The notes below the pieces were generated by a model. That model did not search any database. It was not told the origin of the DNA and saw nothing but the letters and a program-made list of their open reading frames with translations. The position numbers and the translations under genes were made by a program. A stretch of 64,000 nucleotides of DNA from an uncultured Algibacter sp. (lineage in GTDB: Bacteria; Bacteroidota; Bacteroidia; Flavobacteriales; Flavobacteriaceae), in contig NZ_CANLGU010000002.1 in NCBI RefSeq assembly GCF_947490405.1, forward strand, positions 682,001 through 746,000. The letters are read 5' to 3'. This document shows positions 8,211-25,325 of this stretch, one piece after another (position 1 is the first letter of the stretch; each line of letters starts with the position of its first letter).

Positions 8211-8235
8211 TCCTCAGTTCATAAACGTACTAAAA

Positions 8236-8400
8236 GTTATCAAGAAAGGTAGAGGGATTAGACCCGATGAAACCTTGGCAACCCTTTATCTTTTAAAGAA
8301 GGTGCTAAATTCTACTAATACAATTTGTATTGGAAAGATAACGAAAAGTGAATTCCATACTTTTCTTGATGACATTTTAGATAACAAATAAAAAATGTCA
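8236..8400 (+). promoter_or_regulatory. SAM-I (S-box) riboswitch with AUG-hiding expression platform
   Basis: The aptamer shows the S-box core: ATCAAGAAAGGTAGAGGGA, then GATGAAACCTTGGCAACC, then AAGGTGCTAAATTC and GGAAAGATAAC. P1 is GTTATC (8236-8241) with GATAAC (8337-8342). There is no U-tract terminator. Instead TGACATTTT (8370-8378) can pair with AAAATGTCA (8392-8400), which contains the metH start codon at 8395. A competing helix joins 8236-8247 to 8362-8373 (11 Watson-Crick pairs and one G-U). It would break both P1 and the start-codon hairpin. SAM binding should therefore hide the start codon and reduce methionine synthase production. Confidence 0.93.
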
Positions 8401-19475: not shown

Positions 19476-20372
19476 TTATTTCGAAGTTAATTCACTAAAA
19501 AGTGTTTCTAGACTTGTGTTTTTTTGATTTAGTTGTAAAATTTTTAATTGATTGTCATGTGCAAAATCAAATACATAAGAGCGCATGTCTTCAGAGGTTT
19601 TAAACGTGATTTCATAAACAAAGTCATGAGTGTTTACCACTGTTGTAACTTTGGGTAGTTTAAGTAAAAAGGCGTCTTCAACTCTATAATCAAACTCAAC
19701 AATAACCACTTGTTCTTTCTCATCGCGTAAGTCTTTTAATTTTTTATCAGCAACAATTTTGCCTTTATTTATAATAATAACACGGTCGCACATAGCTTCC
19801 ACCTCTTGCATGATATGTGTAGATAGAAATACGGTTTTTGTTTTCCCGATGGTTTTAATTAAATTTCGAATATCAATCAATTGATTTGGGTCTAAACCCG
19901 TTGTAGGTTCATCTAAAATTAAAACCTCAGGATCATGTAAAAGGGCATTGGCTAAACCAACACGTTGGCGATAACCTTTTGATAGTTGTCCAATTTTTTT
20001 ATGCGATTCGGGTATGAGTCCAGTTAAATCAATTACTTCATTAATGCGTTGTTTGCTTACACCATATATATTGGCATTAAAGGTTAGATACTCTTTAACA
20101 TACTGATCTAAGTATAGTGGGTTGTGTTCTGGAAGATATCCAACACTTTGCTGCACCTCTTTGGCATTGGTGTTTACATCATAACCATTTACTTTAGTAG
20201 TACCGTTGCTGGCGGTTAAATAGGTCGTTAAAATTTTCATCATCGTAGATTTACCAGCACCGTTAGGTCCTAAAAAACCAACTACTTCTGGTTTATCAAC
20301 TTTAAAAGAGATGCTATTTAAAGCTTTTTGCTTACCATAAGCTTTTGAAACATCATGAACTTCAATAGACAT
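19476..20372 (-). CDS. gldA: Gliding motility ABC transporter ATP-binding protein
   Basis: This 298-residue ABC ATPase shows Walker A GPNGAGKST, the signature LSKGYRQRVGLANAL, Walker B VLILDEPTTGLDP and the H-loop STHIMQEVEAM. Length, closing sequence and family context match GldA, the ATPase of the GldA-GldF-GldG transporter linked to gliding in Flavobacterium. The permease genes are not next to it, which is usual for gldA. Another ABC-2 export ATPase cannot be fully excluded, but the overall match to GldA is good. Confidence 0.85.
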   Translation of the reverse strand: MSIEVHDVSKAYGKQKALNSISFKVDKPEVVGFLGPNGAGKSTMMKILTTYLTASNGTTKVNGYDVNTNAKEVQQSVGYLPEHNPLYLDQYVKEYLTFNANIYGVSKQRINEVIDLTGLIPESHKKIGQLSKGYRQRVGLANALLHDPEVLILDEPTTGLDPNQLIDIRNLIKTIGKTKTVFLSTHIMQEVEAMCDRVIIINKGKIVADKKLKDLRDEKEQVVIVEFDYRVEDAFLLKLPKVTTVVNTHDFVYEITFKTSEDMRSYVFDFAHDNQLKILQLNQKNTSLETLFSELTSK

Positions 20373-20389
20373 ATTTAAAATAATTTGCT

Positions 20390-20397
20390 CAAAAATA
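20390..20397 (-). promoter_or_regulatory. -7 element for gldA
   Basis: Read on the minus strand this is TATTTTTG, a full match to TAnnTTTG. It lies 17 bases upstream of the gldA start codon, so the leader would be very short. A -33 TTG box is not evident. Confidence 0.4.
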
Positions 20398-20479
20398 ATT
20401 GAATAACTAACGTAATGGTAGATTTACTATAAAATCTTTAAAATTTTTTAGAAAAATAAAAAAAAGGTTTTATAGTATT

Positions 20480-20508
20480 TTGATTTCTTAAAATAATAAT
20501 TACTTTAG
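20480..20508 (+). promoter_or_regulatory. Promoter of the Phe/Tyr biosynthesis operon
   Basis: TTG at 20480-20482 and TACTTTAG at 20501-20508 are separated by 18 bases and resemble the Bacteroidota -33/-7 pair with one mismatch in the -7 box. Transcription would start near 20514, only a few bases before the leader-peptide ATG at 20519. A 9-base inverted repeat (ACTATAAAA at 20426-20434, TTTTATAGT at 20468-20476) lies just upstream. Confidence 0.6.
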
Positions 20509-20518
20509 CCGTGTAATT

Positions 20519-20599
20519 ATGAGAACAACAGCATATTATACATATTTTAACTTTTTTTATTTCTTTTTTAGCAAAGAAATCGAGACGTTGTATGTATAG
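20519..20599 (+). CDS. Phe/Tyr-rich leader peptide of the pheA operon
   Basis: This is a 26-codon reading frame from the ATG at 20519 to TAG at 20597. Residues 6-17 read YYTYFNFFYFFF, so 10 of 12 are Tyr or Phe; in total there are six Phe and five Tyr codons. It starts just after a promoter-like element, lies 111 bases ahead of the pheA gene, and its 3' part contains one arm of a predicted antiterminator. It behaves like the leader peptides PheL and TrpL of enterobacteria. The peptide itself probably has no function; its translation measures the supply of charged tRNA-Phe and tRNA-Tyr. Confidence 0.88.
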   Translation: MRTTAYYTYFNFFYFFFSKEIETLYV

Positions 20600-20653
20600 T
20601 TGAAGAACAATATATTTTAATGCAAGTCTCGATGAAAATCGAGACTTTTTTTT
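20579..20653 (+). terminator. Transcription attenuator of the pheA operon (antiterminator/terminator pair)
   Basis: The terminator is AAGTCTCGAT (20624-20633), loop GAAA, ATCGAGACTT (20638-20647) and a run of eight Ts ending at 20653. The sequence ATCGAGAC also occurs at 20579-20586, inside the leader-peptide frame, and can pair with GTCTCGAT (20626-20633) instead. A ribosome stalled at the aromatic codons (20534-20569) would leave 20579-20586 free and allow read-through. A ribosome reaching the stop codon at 20597 would cover that arm and let the terminator form. Confidence 0.9.
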
Positions 20654-20710
20654 GTTTAACTATTGGTAAAGCAAATACGAAGTAAAGTAATTTGAATTAA
20701 TAACTGAATT

Positions 20711-21538
20711 TTGATAAAAACAGTAGCCATACAAGGTGTAAGAGGATCATTTCATCACATCGTATCTCAGGAGTTTTTTAACAAACCTGTAGATAGTATT
20801 GAGTGTATGACATTTGATAGGGTGGTAGATGCTTTAAGCAATAAAGAATGTGATGCTGCAATTATGGCTCTGGAGAATTCTATTGCGGGTTCAATAATTC
20901 CTAATTATGCATTAATTGACAAATATGGTTTGCATATTGTTGGTGAGCATTATTTAGATATTCAGCATAATTTAATGGCATTGCCAAATCAAAGTATTGA
21001 AGAGATTAAAGAGGTATACTCGCATCCTATGGCTTTGTTACAATGTAAAGAGTTTTTTAAAAAGCACCCTCATATTAAATTAGTTGAGGACAAGGATACT
21101 GCAGAGGTTGCTGAACGTATTTCTAAAAATCAAACAACAGGTGTTGCTGCTATTGCTAGTGTAACTGCTGCAGAAATTTTTGATTTGAATATTTTAGCAC
21201 ATAGCATCCAGACTATAAAACATAATGAAACGCGTTTTGTAATTGTTAAACGAACCAATTCTGAAGTCCCAGAACTAGAAATTAATAAAGCGTCAATAAA
21301 ATTTGAGGCTAACCACAAGCGTGGAAGTTTGGCTACGATATTAAATGTAATGAGCGATTGTAAATTAAATTTAACTAAAATTCAGTCATTACCAATTGTT
21401 GAAACACCATGGAAGTATGCTTTTTTTGTGGATGTTACGTTTGAAACTTATGACAGTTTTAAGAAGGCTAAATCTGTTATAGATATTATGGGAGAAGGGT
21501 TTAAAGTTTTAGGAGAATATAAAAATGCGAAGTTATGA
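20711..21538 (+). CDS. pheA: Prephenate dehydratase
   Basis: This 275-residue protein starts with TTG: an in-frame TGA at 20705 leaves no upstream ATG, and IKTVAIQGVRGSFH is the usual family N-terminus. It converts prephenate to phenylpyruvate. The catalytic TRF motif occurs in HNETRFVIV. The C-terminal ACT domain (FEANHKRGSLATILNVMSD) should bind Phe, but the positions of the GALV and ESRP motifs read GSLA and QSLP, so feedback inhibition may be weak. There is no chorismate mutase domain; that activity is in the fusion at 23728-24810. The stop overlaps the next gene by 4 bases. Confidence 0.94.
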   Translation: MIKTVAIQGVRGSFHHIVSQEFFNKPVDSIECMTFDRVVDALSNKECDAAIMALENSIAGSIIPNYALIDKYGLHIVGEHYLDIQHNLMALPNQSIEEIKEVYSHPMALLQCKEFFKKHPHIKLVEDKDTAEVAERISKNQTTGVAAIASVTAAEIFDLNILAHSIQTIKHNETRFVIVKRTNSEVPELEINKASIKFEANHKRGSLATILNVMSDCKLNLTKIQSLPIVETPWKYAFFVDVTFETYDSFKKAKSVIDIMGEGFKVLGEYKNAKL

Positions 21539-22680
21539 TTGAGGTTGCAAATAGATTGCAAACGGTTGAAGAATATTACTTTTCAAAAAAATTAAGAGAG
21601 GTTAATTTGCTGATTGCAAATGGTAAGCCTATCATTAATTTAGGTATAGGTAGTCCAGATTTACAGCCACCAAAAAAGGTGCTATCTGCAATTTCTGCGA
21701 GTTTTGAGAATCCTATTGCGCACAAATATCAAAGTTATCAAGGGCTTCCTGAACTTAGAGATGCAATTTCTAGATTTTATAAAGAACATTTTTCGGTAAA
21801 CTTAAGTTCGGGTACAGAAATTTTGCCTTTAATGGGAAGTAAGGAGGGTATTATGCATATTTCTATGACCTATTTAAATGCGGGTGATGAGGTGCTAATT
21901 CCTAACCCTGGATATCCAACATACCAATCAGTTACCAAATTGGTTGAAGCAAAAGGAGTTTTATATGAATTGGATGAGGCAAATAATTGGATGCCAGATT
22001 TTAAAGCTCTAGAAAATTTAGATTTAAGTAAAGTGAAATTGATGTGGGTAAACTACCCACACATGCCAACTGGAGCAAAACCAAGTAAAACAGTTTTTGA
22101 AGAGCTAGTAGCCTTTGGAAAGCGGAATAATATTTTAATAGTAAATGATAATCCATACAGTTTTATATTAAATGATAACCCAACAAGTATTTTAAGTGTT
22201 GAGGGCGCCAAAGAGGTGTGTTTAGAATTAAATTCTTTAAGCAAAACTTTTAATATGGCGGGTTGGCGTGTAGGTATGGTTATGGGAGCAAGCGAGCATA
22301 TTAGTAATATTTTGAAGGTAAAGAGCAATATGGATTCTGGTATGTTTTATGGCATACAAAAGGGTGCTATAGAGGCTTTAAAATGCTCGAATATGTGGTT
22401 TGCAACTTTAAATAATGTATATAAACAACGTAGGGATTTAGTATGGAAATTAGCTGATGCGCTTAATTGTACTTATGATAAAGAAGCGTCTGGACTTTTT
22501 GTTTGGGCTAAGTTACCTGCTTATTTAAAAGCTGAAGAGTTTATAGATTTAGTATTGAAGGAGAATCATATTTTTATTACACCAGGAACCATTTTTGGTA
22601 CTAAAGGTGAAGGTTATATTAGGTTTTCTTTGTGCGCATCAACTGAAGTTTTAGAAGAAGCCTTAGCAAGAGTAAAATAG
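21535..22680 (+). CDS. Class I/II aminotransferase of the aromatic operon
   Basis: This 381-residue PLP enzyme of fold type I has NPGYPTYQSV, the substrate-loop NDNPYSFI and the PLP lysine in NSLSKTFNMAGWRVGM. It starts within the ATGA overlap with pheA and is followed by tyrA one base later. It therefore most likely transaminates phenylpyruvate and hydroxyphenylpyruvate, or prephenate to arogenate. The sequence alone does not tell these apart. Related proteins also act as LL-diaminopimelate aminotransferase, but the operon argues for the aromatic role. Confidence 0.88.
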   Translation: MIEVANRLQTVEEYYFSKKLREVNLLIANGKPIINLGIGSPDLQPPKKVLSAISASFENPIAHKYQSYQGLPELRDAISRFYKEHFSVNLSSGTEILPLMGSKEGIMHISMTYLNAGDEVLIPNPGYPTYQSVTKLVEAKGVLYELDEANNWMPDFKALENLDLSKVKLMWVNYPHMPTGAKPSKTVFEELVAFGKRNNILIVNDNPYSFILNDNPTSILSVEGAKEVCLELNSLSKTFNMAGWRVGMVMGASEHISNILKVKSNMDSGMFYGIQKGAIEALKCSNMWFATLNNVYKQRRDLVWKLADALNCTYDKEASGLFVWAKLPAYLKAEEFIDLVLKENHIFITPGTIFGTKGEGYIRFSLCASTEVLEEALARVK

Positions 22681-22681
22681 T

Positions 22682-23533
22682 ATGAAAAATATATACGCCA
22701 TAGGAGTCGGTTTAATTGGAGGGAGTCTTGCTATTGATATCAAGAAGCAAAACCCAGATGTGGTTATTCATGGTATAAGTAGAAAAGATACTACGTTAAA
22801 TACCGCTTTAGAATTAGGCTTAATTGATAAAAAGGCAACTTTGGAGGATATTAAAGACGCTGATTTAGTAATTGTGTCTATCCCTGTTGATGCTACAGTG
22901 AAATTGTTGCCAACTATTTTAGATAAAATATCAGATACTGGTTTGGTAGTTGATGCAGGTTCTACAAAAGAAGCGATTTGTAAGGTTGTTGAGAATCATC
23001 CGAAGCGAAGAAACTTTTTAGCGATGCACCCCATTGCAGGTACTGAACATTCTGGGCCAACAGCAGCTATTGAAGGTTTGTTTAAAGGGAAAACGAATAT
23101 TGTTTGTGAGGTTGAAAAAACAACTTTTAAGTTGCAAGAAAAGGCTTTAAAGATGTTTACAGATATTGGAATGCGTATACGATATATGAATCCTGTGGAG
23201 CATGATAGACATATTGCATATGTATCGCACTTATCTCATATCAGTTCATTTATGTTGGGGAAAACAGTAATTGATAAAGAGAAAAATGAACGTGATATTT
23301 TTGATATGGCGGGTAGTGGATTTGCATCTACAGTACGTTTGGCTAAAAGTTCGCCAGAAATGTGGACGCCTATTTTTAAACAGAATAAAAGTAATGTTAT
23401 AGAAACCTTAGAGGAATATATTAATAACCTTACGCATTTTAAAGAGTTAATGGCTGCTGATAATTTTGAAGCCATTTTTGAGGAGATGAAAAGTACCAAT
23501 CATATAAAAGATATTTTGAATGGTATAATTTAG
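22682..23533 (+). CDS. tyrA: Prephenate dehydrogenase
   Basis: This 283-residue NAD(P)-dependent enzyme oxidatively decarboxylates prephenate to hydroxyphenylpyruvate. The N-terminal AIGVGLIGGSLA is the GxGxxG dinucleotide motif, followed by DAGSTKEAI and the active-site region AMHPIAGTEHSGP. HIAYVSHLSHISSF contains the histidines near the substrate. No chorismate mutase or ACT domain is attached. It lies one base after the aminotransferase gene. Its 3' end is followed by a dispersed repeat, then by the DAHP synthase fusion. Confidence 0.94.
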   Translation: MKNIYAIGVGLIGGSLAIDIKKQNPDVVIHGISRKDTTLNTALELGLIDKKATLEDIKDADLVIVSIPVDATVKLLPTILDKISDTGLVVDAGSTKEAICKVVENHPKRRNFLAMHPIAGTEHSGPTAAIEGLFKGKTNIVCEVEKTTFKLQEKALKMFTDIGMRIRYMNPVEHDRHIAYVSHLSHISSFMLGKTVIDKEKNERDIFDMAGSGFASTVRLAKSSPEMWTPIFKQNKSNVIETLEEYINNLTHFKELMAADNFEAIFEEMKSTNHIKDILNGII

Positions 23534-23563
23534 AAAGGTTTGAAAGCGGCCTTGGCAAGTAAA

Positions 23564-23650
23564 CCCGCGTTAGGGATTGCAGAGGAAAGCCCACAGCGGA
23601 GGCACGGAGCGAGGACTTGTAACGGAAAGCCCGACCCTTGTGGTAACGCC
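23564..23650 (+). repeat. Dispersed structured repeat, copy B (most complete)
   Basis: It starts CCCGCGTTAGGGATTG, contains two related units GGAAAGCCCACAGC and GGAAAGCCCGACCC with GCGAGGACTTGTAAC between them, and ends TGGTAACGCCC. The ends GCGTTA (23567-23572) and TAACGC (23644-23649) are complementary. It lies 30 bases after tyrA and inside the aromatic operon. Confidence 0.85.
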
Positions 23651-23727
23651 CAAATAAATTGAACATAGAACAACAAAAATTAAATAGTAAACATAAAATA
23701 GCTTAAGCAGCTAAATATTAAGTAAAA

Positions 23728-24810
23728 ATGGAAAACAATAAAGAAATGAGAACCTGGTTAGATGATTTAGGATTAGATCATCCGTTAGTAATAGCGGGTC
23801 CTTGTAGCGCAGAAACAGAAGAACAAGTTTTAAGAATAGCTCATGAGCTAAAAGACACAGATGTAAGCTATTTTAGAGCTGGTATTTGGAAACCAAGAAC
23901 ACGCCCAGGAAATTTTGAAGGTGTTGGTGCTTTAGGTTTAAAATGGTTGCAAAAAGTTAAGGAAGAAACTGGCATGAAGGTTTGTACTGAGGTGGCTAAT
24001 GCAGCGCATGTAAAATTAGCTTTAGAGCATGATGTTGATTTATTATGGATTGGAGCCCGATCTACAGTTTCTCCATTTATTATGCAAGAAATAGCGGATG
24101 CTTTGCAAGGTACAGATAAGCCAGTTTTAATTAAAAACCCAGTAAACCCTGATTTATCTTTGTGGTTAGGTGGTATAGAAAGAATATACAGTTCTGGTGT
24201 TAAAAATATTGGTGCAATTCATAGAGGGTTTTCTACATATCAAAAAACGAAATATAGAAACATTCCAGAATGGCAAATGGCTATTGAGTTTCAAAATAGA
24301 TTTCCAGATATTCCTTTAATTAACGATCCGTCTCATATTACAGGAAAGAGAGATATGGTTTTTGATGTGTCTCAAACGGCATTGGATTTAAATTTTGATG
24401 GGTTGATGATTGAAACGCATTACGATCCTGATAATGCTTGGAGTGATGCTGCACAACAGGTTACGCCTGCTACTTTGGTTCAAATCATGAAGGATTTGAA
24501 AATTAGAAAAGAGTCTAATCAAGAAGAAGAATATAATAGTGCACTTAATAATTTGAGAGCTCAGATTGATGTGGTTGATAACCAAATTATTGAATTGTTA
24601 GGGCAGCGTATGAAAGCCTCTGATGGTATTGGTGAGCTTAAAAAGAACAAAAATGTTGCTGTTTTACAGTCTAAACGCTGGAACGAGATTTTAGGCAAAA
24701 TGGTACTTGAAGGCGAGCAACACGGGTTGAGCGAAGAGTTTATCTTAAGGATGTTTAAAGCGGTTCATCAAGAATCGATTAACCATCAAGAGAAGATTAT
24801 TAATGGATAG
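23728..24810 (+). CDS. Bifunctional DAHP synthase / chorismate mutase
   Basis: This 360-residue fusion has an N-terminal 3-deoxy-7-phosphoheptulonate synthase domain of the KdsA-like type (VIAGPCSAET, then FRAGIWKPRTRPGNFEGVG, and NDPSHITGKRD). A C-terminal AroQ-type chorismate mutase domain follows from about residue 270 (LRAQIDVVDNQIIELLGQRMKASDGIGELKK). It therefore feeds erythrose-4-phosphate and PEP into the shikimate route and also makes prephenate from chorismate for the PheA and TyrA encoded upstream. In other bacteria such mutase domains confer Phe/Tyr or prephenate feedback on the synthase. It ends the operon before a strong terminator. Confidence 0.95.
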   Translation: MENNKEMRTWLDDLGLDHPLVIAGPCSAETEEQVLRIAHELKDTDVSYFRAGIWKPRTRPGNFEGVGALGLKWLQKVKEETGMKVCTEVANAAHVKLALEHDVDLLWIGARSTVSPFIMQEIADALQGTDKPVLIKNPVNPDLSLWLGGIERIYSSGVKNIGAIHRGFSTYQKTKYRNIPEWQMAIEFQNRFPDIPLINDPSHITGKRDMVFDVSQTALDLNFDGLMIETHYDPDNAWSDAAQQVTPATLVQIMKDLKIRKESNQEEEYNSALNNLRAQIDVVDNQIIELLGQRMKASDGIGELKKNKNVAVLQSKRWNEILGKMVLEGEQHGLSEEFILRMFKAVHQESINHQEKIING

Positions 24811-24826
24811 TAAGAGTATCTATTAT

Positions 24827-24859
24827 AAAAAAAGCCTCCATTTTTTGGAGGCTTTTTTT
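24827..24859. terminator. Bidirectional terminator between aroF-like fusion and the convergent gene
   Basis: GCCTCCA (24834-24840) pairs with TGGAGGC (24846-24852), flanked by A7 on the left and T7 on the right. It can stop transcription from both sides, which fits the convergent genes at 24810 and 24876. Confidence 0.9.
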
Positions 24860-24875
24860 GTGGCTTTTTTACAAT

Positions 24876-25325
24876 TTATTTATTCCTTTTAAAGATATAA
24901 CGAGTAATAAAAATACCTTGGTTGTCGCCTTTACCACCAGAGCTTTCAACACCACTAGTAACAAAAGCTAGTTCCCAGCCTTCTTCAATCATTGTATTGA
25001 TTTTAGATTCTATTATTGCATCATTGGCTGCAATATTTTGAAAACGAATACCACCAATGTTATAAAAGTTTAACAATTTAGTTTCGTCAAAACCTTTTAC
25101 TCTAATTTCTCCACGCTTGGATTTGTTACGTGTGTTATCTTCTTCGGTTTGAGTTGAAGTAAATTCTTTGTAATCTTTCGTTTCGTTAGCGCTAATAATT
25201 CTAGAACGCCCTAAACCATTAGGAACAATAGACTCTACACTTGTTACTACTTTGTACTCTACTTGTGCGTTTGTTTCAATAAAAGAAAATAAAGAAACAG
25301 CTAATACGATTAATAATTTTTTCAT
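24876..25325 (-). CDS. Secreted protein of unknown function
   Basis: This 149-residue precursor begins with a clear signal peptide, MKKLLIVLAVSLFSFIETNAQ, so the mature protein starts with VEYKVVTSVESIV and is likely periplasmic. The rest is polar. Features such as MIEEGWELAFVTSG and GIFITRYIFKR resemble the DUF4177-like pattern in which a short beta sheet ends with an aromatic strand, but I do not recognise a family with confidence. It stands alone, convergent with the aromatic operon and sharing its terminator. Confidence 0.75.
   Translation of the reverse strand: MKKLLIVLAVSLFSFIETNAQVEYKVVTSVESIVPNGLGRSRIISANETKDYKEFTSTQTEEDNTRNKSKRGEIRVKGFDETKLLNFYNIGGIRFQNIAANDAIIESKINTMIEEGWELAFVTSGVESSGGKGDNQGIFITRYIFKRNK

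Follow-up and report, generated by a model that had tools for sequence, protein, structure and literature searches.

Control of amino acid synthesis has been little studied in the Bacteroidota, whose translation start signals are unlike those of E. coli and which form, to our knowledge, a phylum without Shine-Dalgarno sites. In the enterobacterial pheA leader (RF01859, Phe_leader) an ORF rich in codons for the end product is combined with mutually exclusive stems and an intrinsic terminator, with pheA lying downstream. The element described here is alike in all of these features.

In 2010 leader-peptide systems were stated to be known only in Proteobacteria and Actinobacteria, besides the authors' own case in the Firmicutes (PMC2965389). 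A Phe-Tyr-Phe leader precedes the DAHP synthase gene aroF of C. glutamicum (PMC4046766), and in Acholeplasma uORFC-13-1, located before aroF, is described with a Phe-coding U-run and a terminator (PMC8632094). Bacteroid-trp is listed in PMC2864571, a paper whose 'pheA' motif belongs to Actinobacteria. In B. thetaiotaomicron, 5' UTRs contain short ORFs reminiscent of leader peptides (PMC7366714). Closest to the present locus are the flavobacteria, for which conserved 5' elements without an Rfam family were reported at pheA and hisG, together with signs of leader peptides before amino acid operons (Guerin et al. 2021, PMC9723704).

The aromatic amino acid operon and its leader region

The DNA analyzed, referred to here as the window, is a stretch of 64,000 nucleotides (contig C2, 682001-746000) from the 3.69-Mb assembly of an Algibacter-like Flavobacteriaceae genome. 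The window's pheA product shares 97% identity with the one from an uncultured Algibacter (L152). The operon has the order pheA-aminotransferase-tyrA-DAHP synthase/chorismate mutase, and the gene calls are backed by Pfam matches. The genes are as follows.

19476-20372, minus strand: divergent ABC-transporter gene, the 5' neighbor of the leader region; the short intergenic region reaches to pheA at 20711
20711-21538, plus strand: pheA, prephenate dehydratase (PF00800, 197.9 bits), with a TTG start as called
21535-22680, plus strand: class I/II aminotransferase (PF00155)
22682-23533, plus strand: tyrA, prephenate dehydrogenase (PF02153, PF20463)
23728-24810, plus strand: DAHP synthase fused to chorismate mutase (PF00793, PF01817)

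The C-terminal ACT match of pheA scores under its cut-off. The same operon is complete in 29 of the 37 family loci for which 3 kb of downstream sequence is available. Since the upstream gene is divergent, a terminator in the leader region serves no transcript arriving from upstream. Several short, overlapping ORFs lie on both strands in the ∼194 nt that separate tyrA from the DAHP synthase gene (23534-23727). Elsewhere in the window, a SAM riboswitch (RF00162, 89.6 bits) is found at 8234-8344.

The region between the transporter gene and pheA contains the following elements, all on the plus strand.

20479-20482: TTTG, candidate −33 element, separated by 18 nt from the −7 box of what would be a sigma-A promoter of the Bacteroidetes type (consensus given in PMC6847099)
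20501-20508: −7 element TACTTTAG, with one mismatch to TAnnTTTG; predicted transcription start at about 20513
20519-20599: leader ORF of 26 codons, MRTTAYYTYFNFFYFFFSKEIETLYV, with the stop codon TAG at 20597-20599; found upstream of pheA in relatives
20534-20569: aromatic control codons, YYTYFNFFYFFF, with the U-rich arm 1 (20559-20566) inside
20573-20586: arm 2, of which 20573-20580 is predicted to pair with arm 1 and 20579-20586 with arm 3 (antiterminator)
20624-20633: arm 3, common to the antiterminator (20626-20633) and the terminator
20638-20653: arm 4 and T-run of the intrinsic terminator (stem 20624-20633/20638-20647, T-run to 20653)

A reading made earlier from the window's letters alone (the sequence-only reading) had placed here a 26-codon aromatic ORF before the pheA operon, a terminator at 20624-20653, an 8-base antiterminator arm at 20579-20586, and a promoter-like pair. 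Every coordinate of the ORF was reproduced, as were those of the terminator and the arm, and the promoter-like pair fits the Bacteroidetes sigma-A pattern. The arm 2 stretch ATCGAGAC (20579-20586) is fully complementary to 20626-20633. The terminator is the sole terminator-like site in 20380-20750, where shuffled sequences gave an expectation of 0.0, and 20500-20660 folds better than 200 of 200 shuffles (z = −3.0).

Taken together, the locus has a run of end-product codons, an intrinsic terminator, a covarying antiterminator that shares an arm with it (below), and the spacing expected of a classical attenuator. We put at about 0.9 the probability that the element controls the aromatic amino acid operon by ribosome-mediated transcription attenuation. 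Sequence comparison is what supports this reading, through the ORF, the stems, their covariation, the spacing, and the conservation.

Conservation in the Flavobacteriaceae

The family sample comprised pheA loci from 100 genomes, including the window's own. Hardly any genus is represented more than once, and 83 of 99 genera gave a match; PF00800 was present in 84 of the genomes. A leader precedes pheA in 82 of these 84 PDT-bearing genomes, which bears out the expectation of the sequence-only reading that relatives would keep the leader frame. The script listed 79 of them, and three (L029, L039, and L069), on which it failed owing to a contig edge or a leader lying farther upstream, were found by reading. 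No leader was found before pheA in the remaining two, L021 and L035. At L010 the script did not find a terminator.

A covariance model, R1, was built from 78 family loci. It matches 79 of the 100 family genomes, 75 of which supplied rows and four of which did not (G013, G048, G065, and G080); it misses three row genomes (G064, G087, and G092) and matches none of the 16 genomes without PDT. A comparison of coordinates placed the best match directly upstream of pheA in all 79 matched genomes. R1 gives the window's leader 97.9 bits, and no other site in the window exceeds 34.9 bits. The 34.9-bit site (24826-24915, minus strand) is apparently unrelated to the leader and yet reaches an E value of 0.0072, so the weak second matches in G008, G047, G056, and G083 (E 0.004-0.008) are at about chance level. 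A fifth genome, G048, has a second match on another contig with a score equal to the first.

Both stems were assessed in a MAFFT alignment of the 78 family loci. For the terminator, 94.1% of cells are paired and eight of 10 pairs show changes on both sides; there are 59 double-change cells, against 8.5 in shuffles, and the covariation score of 0.329 (0.213 in shuffles) was reached by none of 500 shuffles. For the antiterminator, 72.6% of cells are paired, with changes on both sides in seven of eight pairs, and 49 double-change cells against 25.5 in shuffles; its covariation score of 0.286 (0.201 in shuffles) was likewise reached by 0 of 500. Pair 37-104 is an example, with AU in 44 rows, GC in 30, GU in three, and another combination in one. 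Two of the five antiterminator measures did not go beyond the shuffles, namely the number of pairs changed on both sides (equaled in 62 of 500) and the further pair types (122 of 500). In some of the rows MAFFT sets arm 2 one column off, and the antiterminator count is lowered because of this misplacement.

A swap test that is free of register and alignment was therefore informative, in which the pairing of each locus's own arm 2 and arm 3 was compared with the mean obtained with partners from other loci. The own pairing was better at 190 of 195 loci in all sets, at 73 of 78 in the family, and at 38 of 39 in a mixed set (loci from the order and the class plus additional ones from the family). 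The leader sequences are related, and nominal P values therefore overstate the evidence. The paired changes that the sequence-only reading had proposed to look for in the stems were thus seen in both helices, terminator and antiterminator.

Codon content of the leader

Among ATG ORFs of 9-45 amino acids on either strand of the 64-kb window, the leader alone has at least seven aromatic residues per 10, and five mononucleotide shuffles of the window yielded no ORF at this threshold. At a lax threshold of five aromatics 14 ORFs per strand pass; three others among these have a nearby terminator-like hairpin, with scores of 20-21 each against 31 at the leader. In relatives the leaders were picked by a script that selects ORFs by aromatic richness, so that richness alone is no evidence, and what counts is their position, the terminator, and the arms.

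Codons for both Phe and Tyr are present in all 79 script-listed family leaders, and Trp codons occur as well in 52. The proposal that one peptide carries Phe and Tyr codons thus holds throughout this group; as an account of the make-up it was incomplete, the Trp codons having been left out. In the named set Phe and Tyr occur together in 78 of 78 leaders and Trp in 44; in the mixed set the figures are 38 and 14 of 39. The window's own leader has no Trp codon. Alignment columns 4-6 contain both TGG (Trp) and TTT (Phe), as well as AAC and other codons. It is likely, judging from this codon content, that a single peptide senses Phe and Tyr together.

Promoter and transcript start

Of 196 leaders, 176 have a box of the form TAnnTT[TAC]G no more than 60 nt ahead of the start codon, compared with 12% of shuffled upstream regions, and 167 have one no more than 25 nt ahead; TACTTTAG itself is present in 98. 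The window's box ends 10 nt short of the ATG. A sigma-70 promoter was also considered; a scan for it gave four sites against 2.6 in shuffles and is uninformative. In F. johnsoniae the −7 box is separated from the transcription start by 4-5 nt, and A at −3 is a favorable base (PMC6847099); A is found at −3 in 57 of 79 family leaders. Because the F. johnsoniae distance was applied here, the transcript is predicted to start at about 20513 with a 5' UTR of about 6 nt, compared with a median 5' UTR of 24 in F. psychrophilum (PMC9723704). The description of the ORF as almost leaderless is fair as a prediction, the 5' UTR being short, though strictly leaderless it is not.

Ribosome geometry and proposed mechanism

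At family loci arm 2 starts 8-14 nt (median 11) after the last aromatic codon. It lies under the ribosome when this is at the stop codon, and arm 3 begins 21-46 nt past the first base of that codon. Three geometric conditions were scored, with an assumed size for the footprint of the ribosome: a gap of at least 7 nt, coverage of arm 2 at the stop codon, and a free arm 3. All three hold at 75 of the 77 family loci with an arm, in agreement with the earlier proposal that the arm is freed by a stall and covered once the ribosome arrives at the stop codon, and at 29 of 37 in the mixed set. In some loci (e.g. L007, L018, L026, and L034) the leader ORF ends ahead of arm 2, which is still near the aromatic run.

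This arrangement leads us to the following scheme, in which the promoter and start site, the translation of the leader, the stalling and termination steps, and the response to Phe and Tyr are all inferred. Transcription would begin about 6 nt before the leader ATG, with the ribosome trailing RNA polymerase. When charged tRNA-Phe or tRNA-Tyr is scarce, the ribosome would stall within 20534-20569 with its leading edge short of arm 2, allowing 20579-20586 to pair with 20626-20633 and the operon to be transcribed. When both charged tRNAs are ample, the ribosome would reach the stop codon at 20597 and cover arm 2; 20624-20633 would then pair with 20638-20647, and transcription would stop near 20650.

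Folding of the window RNA was modeled in each state. For nascent RNA extending up to arm 3, the probability of pairing between arms 2 and 3 depends on the ribosome: 0.96 when it is stalled, 0.00 when it sits at the stop codon, and 0.56 when it is absent; the last value suggests that ribosome-free (uncoupled) transcripts may be partly read through. Once arm 4 has been made, the terminator is favored in every ribosome state (0.93-0.97). In the finished RNA with a stalled ribosome the probability of pairing between arms 3 and 4 is 0.93 for the window, and the median is 0.92 in 77 family loci. Because stalling does not move the equilibrium away from the terminator, the switch can only be a kinetic one.

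Alternative explanations

That an ordinary constitutive terminator should stand beside a T-rich chance ORF is scarcely credible. The genome is A+T-rich, and T-rich DNA yields Phe codons, yet the conservation and covariation, the scarcity of such ORFs, and the divergent upstream gene all contradict it. Control of the terminator by an RNA-binding protein or a ligand aptamer, with the ORF incidental, is very improbable. Protein- or ligand-controlled attenuators occur in other phyla. Against such control at this site, no Rfam family exceeds its threshold at the window locus, and among 20 chosen loci (L085 being the window's own) no Rfam match falls at the leader, the matches found, Flavo-1 in L108 and tRNA in L309, both lying away from it. 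The RNAalifold consensus structure consists of the terminator stem only. Aromatic codons are also concentrated in one frame, making up 40% there, compared with 14% and 17% in the two alternative frames of 196 leaders, a set selected for aromatic richness.

Two further alternatives retain the ORF as sensor. TnaC is a precedent for sensing by nascent-peptide arrest in the ribosome tunnel, and an aromatic peptide might there detect a free amino acid or another ligand, its sequence driving the stall. The leader peptide is hydrophobic and is conserved in the neighborhood of Algibacter. An arrest peptide is expected to keep fixed residues at constant distances from the P site, whereas the order and number of F, Y, and W differ between genera and the C-terminal part changes with arm 2 and the position of the stop codon; we regard arrest as most unlikely, if a shade less so than protein or ligand control. 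Less remote, though still improbable, is that the ORF senses Phe alone, as a pheA-type leader, with the Tyr codons neutral. Phe codons do outnumber Tyr codons in the family leaders (means of 5.2 and 3.6), and the last codons ahead of arm 2 are mostly Phe. The presence of both residues in every script-listed family leader, the occurrence of tyrA and DAHP synthase in the same operon, and the equal prominence of Tyr in the class relatives L308 and L231 argue instead for attenuation that responds to Tyr as well as Phe.

Spread beyond the family and probable doubled attenuators

Loci outside the family were searched with a script requiring an ATG ORF with at least five aromatics in 10 and a terminator within about 110 nt. 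The order's other families supplied 38 loci (41 genomes with PDT, of which two were not fetched and one had too short a contig), and the class's other orders supplied 54 (55 genomes, one partial match not being fetched). The element precedes pheA at 12 of the 38 order loci and at 36 of the 54 class loci. In other classes of the phylum it was found at none of 29 loci, a biased sample made up of the best-scoring 29 of 127. With the threshold raised to six aromatics the counts are nine, 33, and 0, respectively.

The element is missing at 18 of the 54 class loci and at 26 of the 38 order loci, the latter including all 13 from family f5 and all 11 from family f16, which come from 0.6-Mb genomes. 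The f5 loci (L086-L094, L099, L101, L109, and L239) carry pheA relatives with only ∼29-34% identity to that of the window, and none showed an aromatic leader; leader-type control may have been lost or replaced there.

At five loci from four families, pheA is preceded by a tandem pair of aromatic leader ORFs, with a hairpin and a T-run after each. The ORF pairs with their hairpins are located as follows.

L308 (f23): 1173-1462
L312 (f23): 1183-1458
L309 (f19): 1147-1412
L249 (f13): 1271-1532
L352 (f86): 1275-1494

The spread script lists four of the five; the first hairpin of L312 is imperfect and was read by eye. Complementarity of arms 2 and 3 is strong in L308b, L309a, L309b, L249b, L352a, and L352b, where 0-10 of 500 shuffles matched it. 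L308a is borderline (31 of 500), and for L312a (73), L312b (118), and L249a (139) the complementarity is weak. The simplest effect of two units with like codons would be a steeper response with lower leak. Tandem attenuators are described at mgtCBR of Salmonella (PMC3641672).

Other candidate leaders in the same genome

Upstream of trpE a Bacteroid-trp RNA (RF01692, 59.7 bits) was detected at L264 2402-2529 on the minus strand, reading MKFILNNTWWWCFRN, with a terminator-like hairpin read by eye. An ORF that may encode a protein resembling GIY-YIG proteins separates this leader from trpE. The view from 420 nt upstream had suggested a trpE without a leader, and was dropped since the Rfam match lies farther upstream. 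A His leader, MTFIQTHHHFHICSQAK, followed by a terminator-like hairpin, is seen ∼162 nt upstream of hisG (L273, C3 102300-104500), and thrA has, ∼194 nt ahead of it, an ORF rich in Thr and Ile, MNHFNQNTLTIVSFLSKGTTSTFGTTTNITTLWGY, that may be a thr leader (L270, C3 36300-39800). No leader was found in the 420 nt upstream of ilvD; the other strand of the stretch upstream of ilvD carries a SAM-II riboswitch (RF01726, 52.3 bits, L274 2132-2213, minus strand). With his, thr, and trp leader candidates in the same genome, the pheA element is one of a set.

A conserved attenuator would require tight coupling of the ribosome to RNA polymerase in a phylum that, as far as we know, does without Shine-Dalgarno sites, and such coupling can be tested.

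Comparison with known systems

RF01859 gives a best match of 20.9 bits (E 0.48) against a threshold of 55 bits. The element differs from the enterobacterial Phe_leader in having Tyr codons beside Phe, often with Trp in relatives, in the presence of tyrA and DAHP synthase in the operon, and in its Bacteroidetes-type promoter and very short predicted 5' UTR. For T-box RNAs, Rfam yields nothing at the gathering score anywhere in the window, and within 20300-20800 nothing even at E values as high as 10. Bacteroid-trp is likewise a leader-peptide RNA of the same phylum, differing in that it serves the Trp operon, and it has no match in the window. A single Rfam-type family could be defined for the pheA element across the class, and Rfam release 15 contains no match to it.

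Compared with the window's leader, that of C. glutamicum aroF belongs to another phylum and has a far shorter aromatic stretch (PMC4046766), and Acholeplasma uORFC-13-1 is again from another phylum, with Phe the only amino acid named in that account (PMC8632094). The structured 5' element upstream of pheA in F. psychrophilum concerns the same gene in the same family and is probably the same element as the window's; the passages on pheA there give neither a leader sequence nor stems or amino acids (PMC9723704). Among the matches listed from an open-access library, no title or displayed abstract described the leader's sequence or its Phe/Tyr/Trp make-up. The earlier remark that such a leader had not been seen described was too strong, being preceded by the F. 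psychrophilum pheA element (PMC9723704) and the Phe-Tyr-Phe leader of C. glutamicum (PMC4046766).

The novelty of the pheA leader as such is modest. What seems new is its class-wide spread, the frequent Trp codon, and the series-doubled attenuators of some relatives. A broader picture, which we offer tentatively and at somewhat less than even odds, is of a Bacteroidia-wide attenuator in which one peptide watches the three aromatic amino acids, Phe and Tyr nearly always and Trp in roughly one half to two thirds of the leaders of Flavobacteriaceae. This would suit an operon whose DAHP synthase also supplies the common pathway. It would work with a very short 5' UTR lacking a Shine-Dalgarno site, and its doubling in series in four sampled families would multiply termination and steepen the response.
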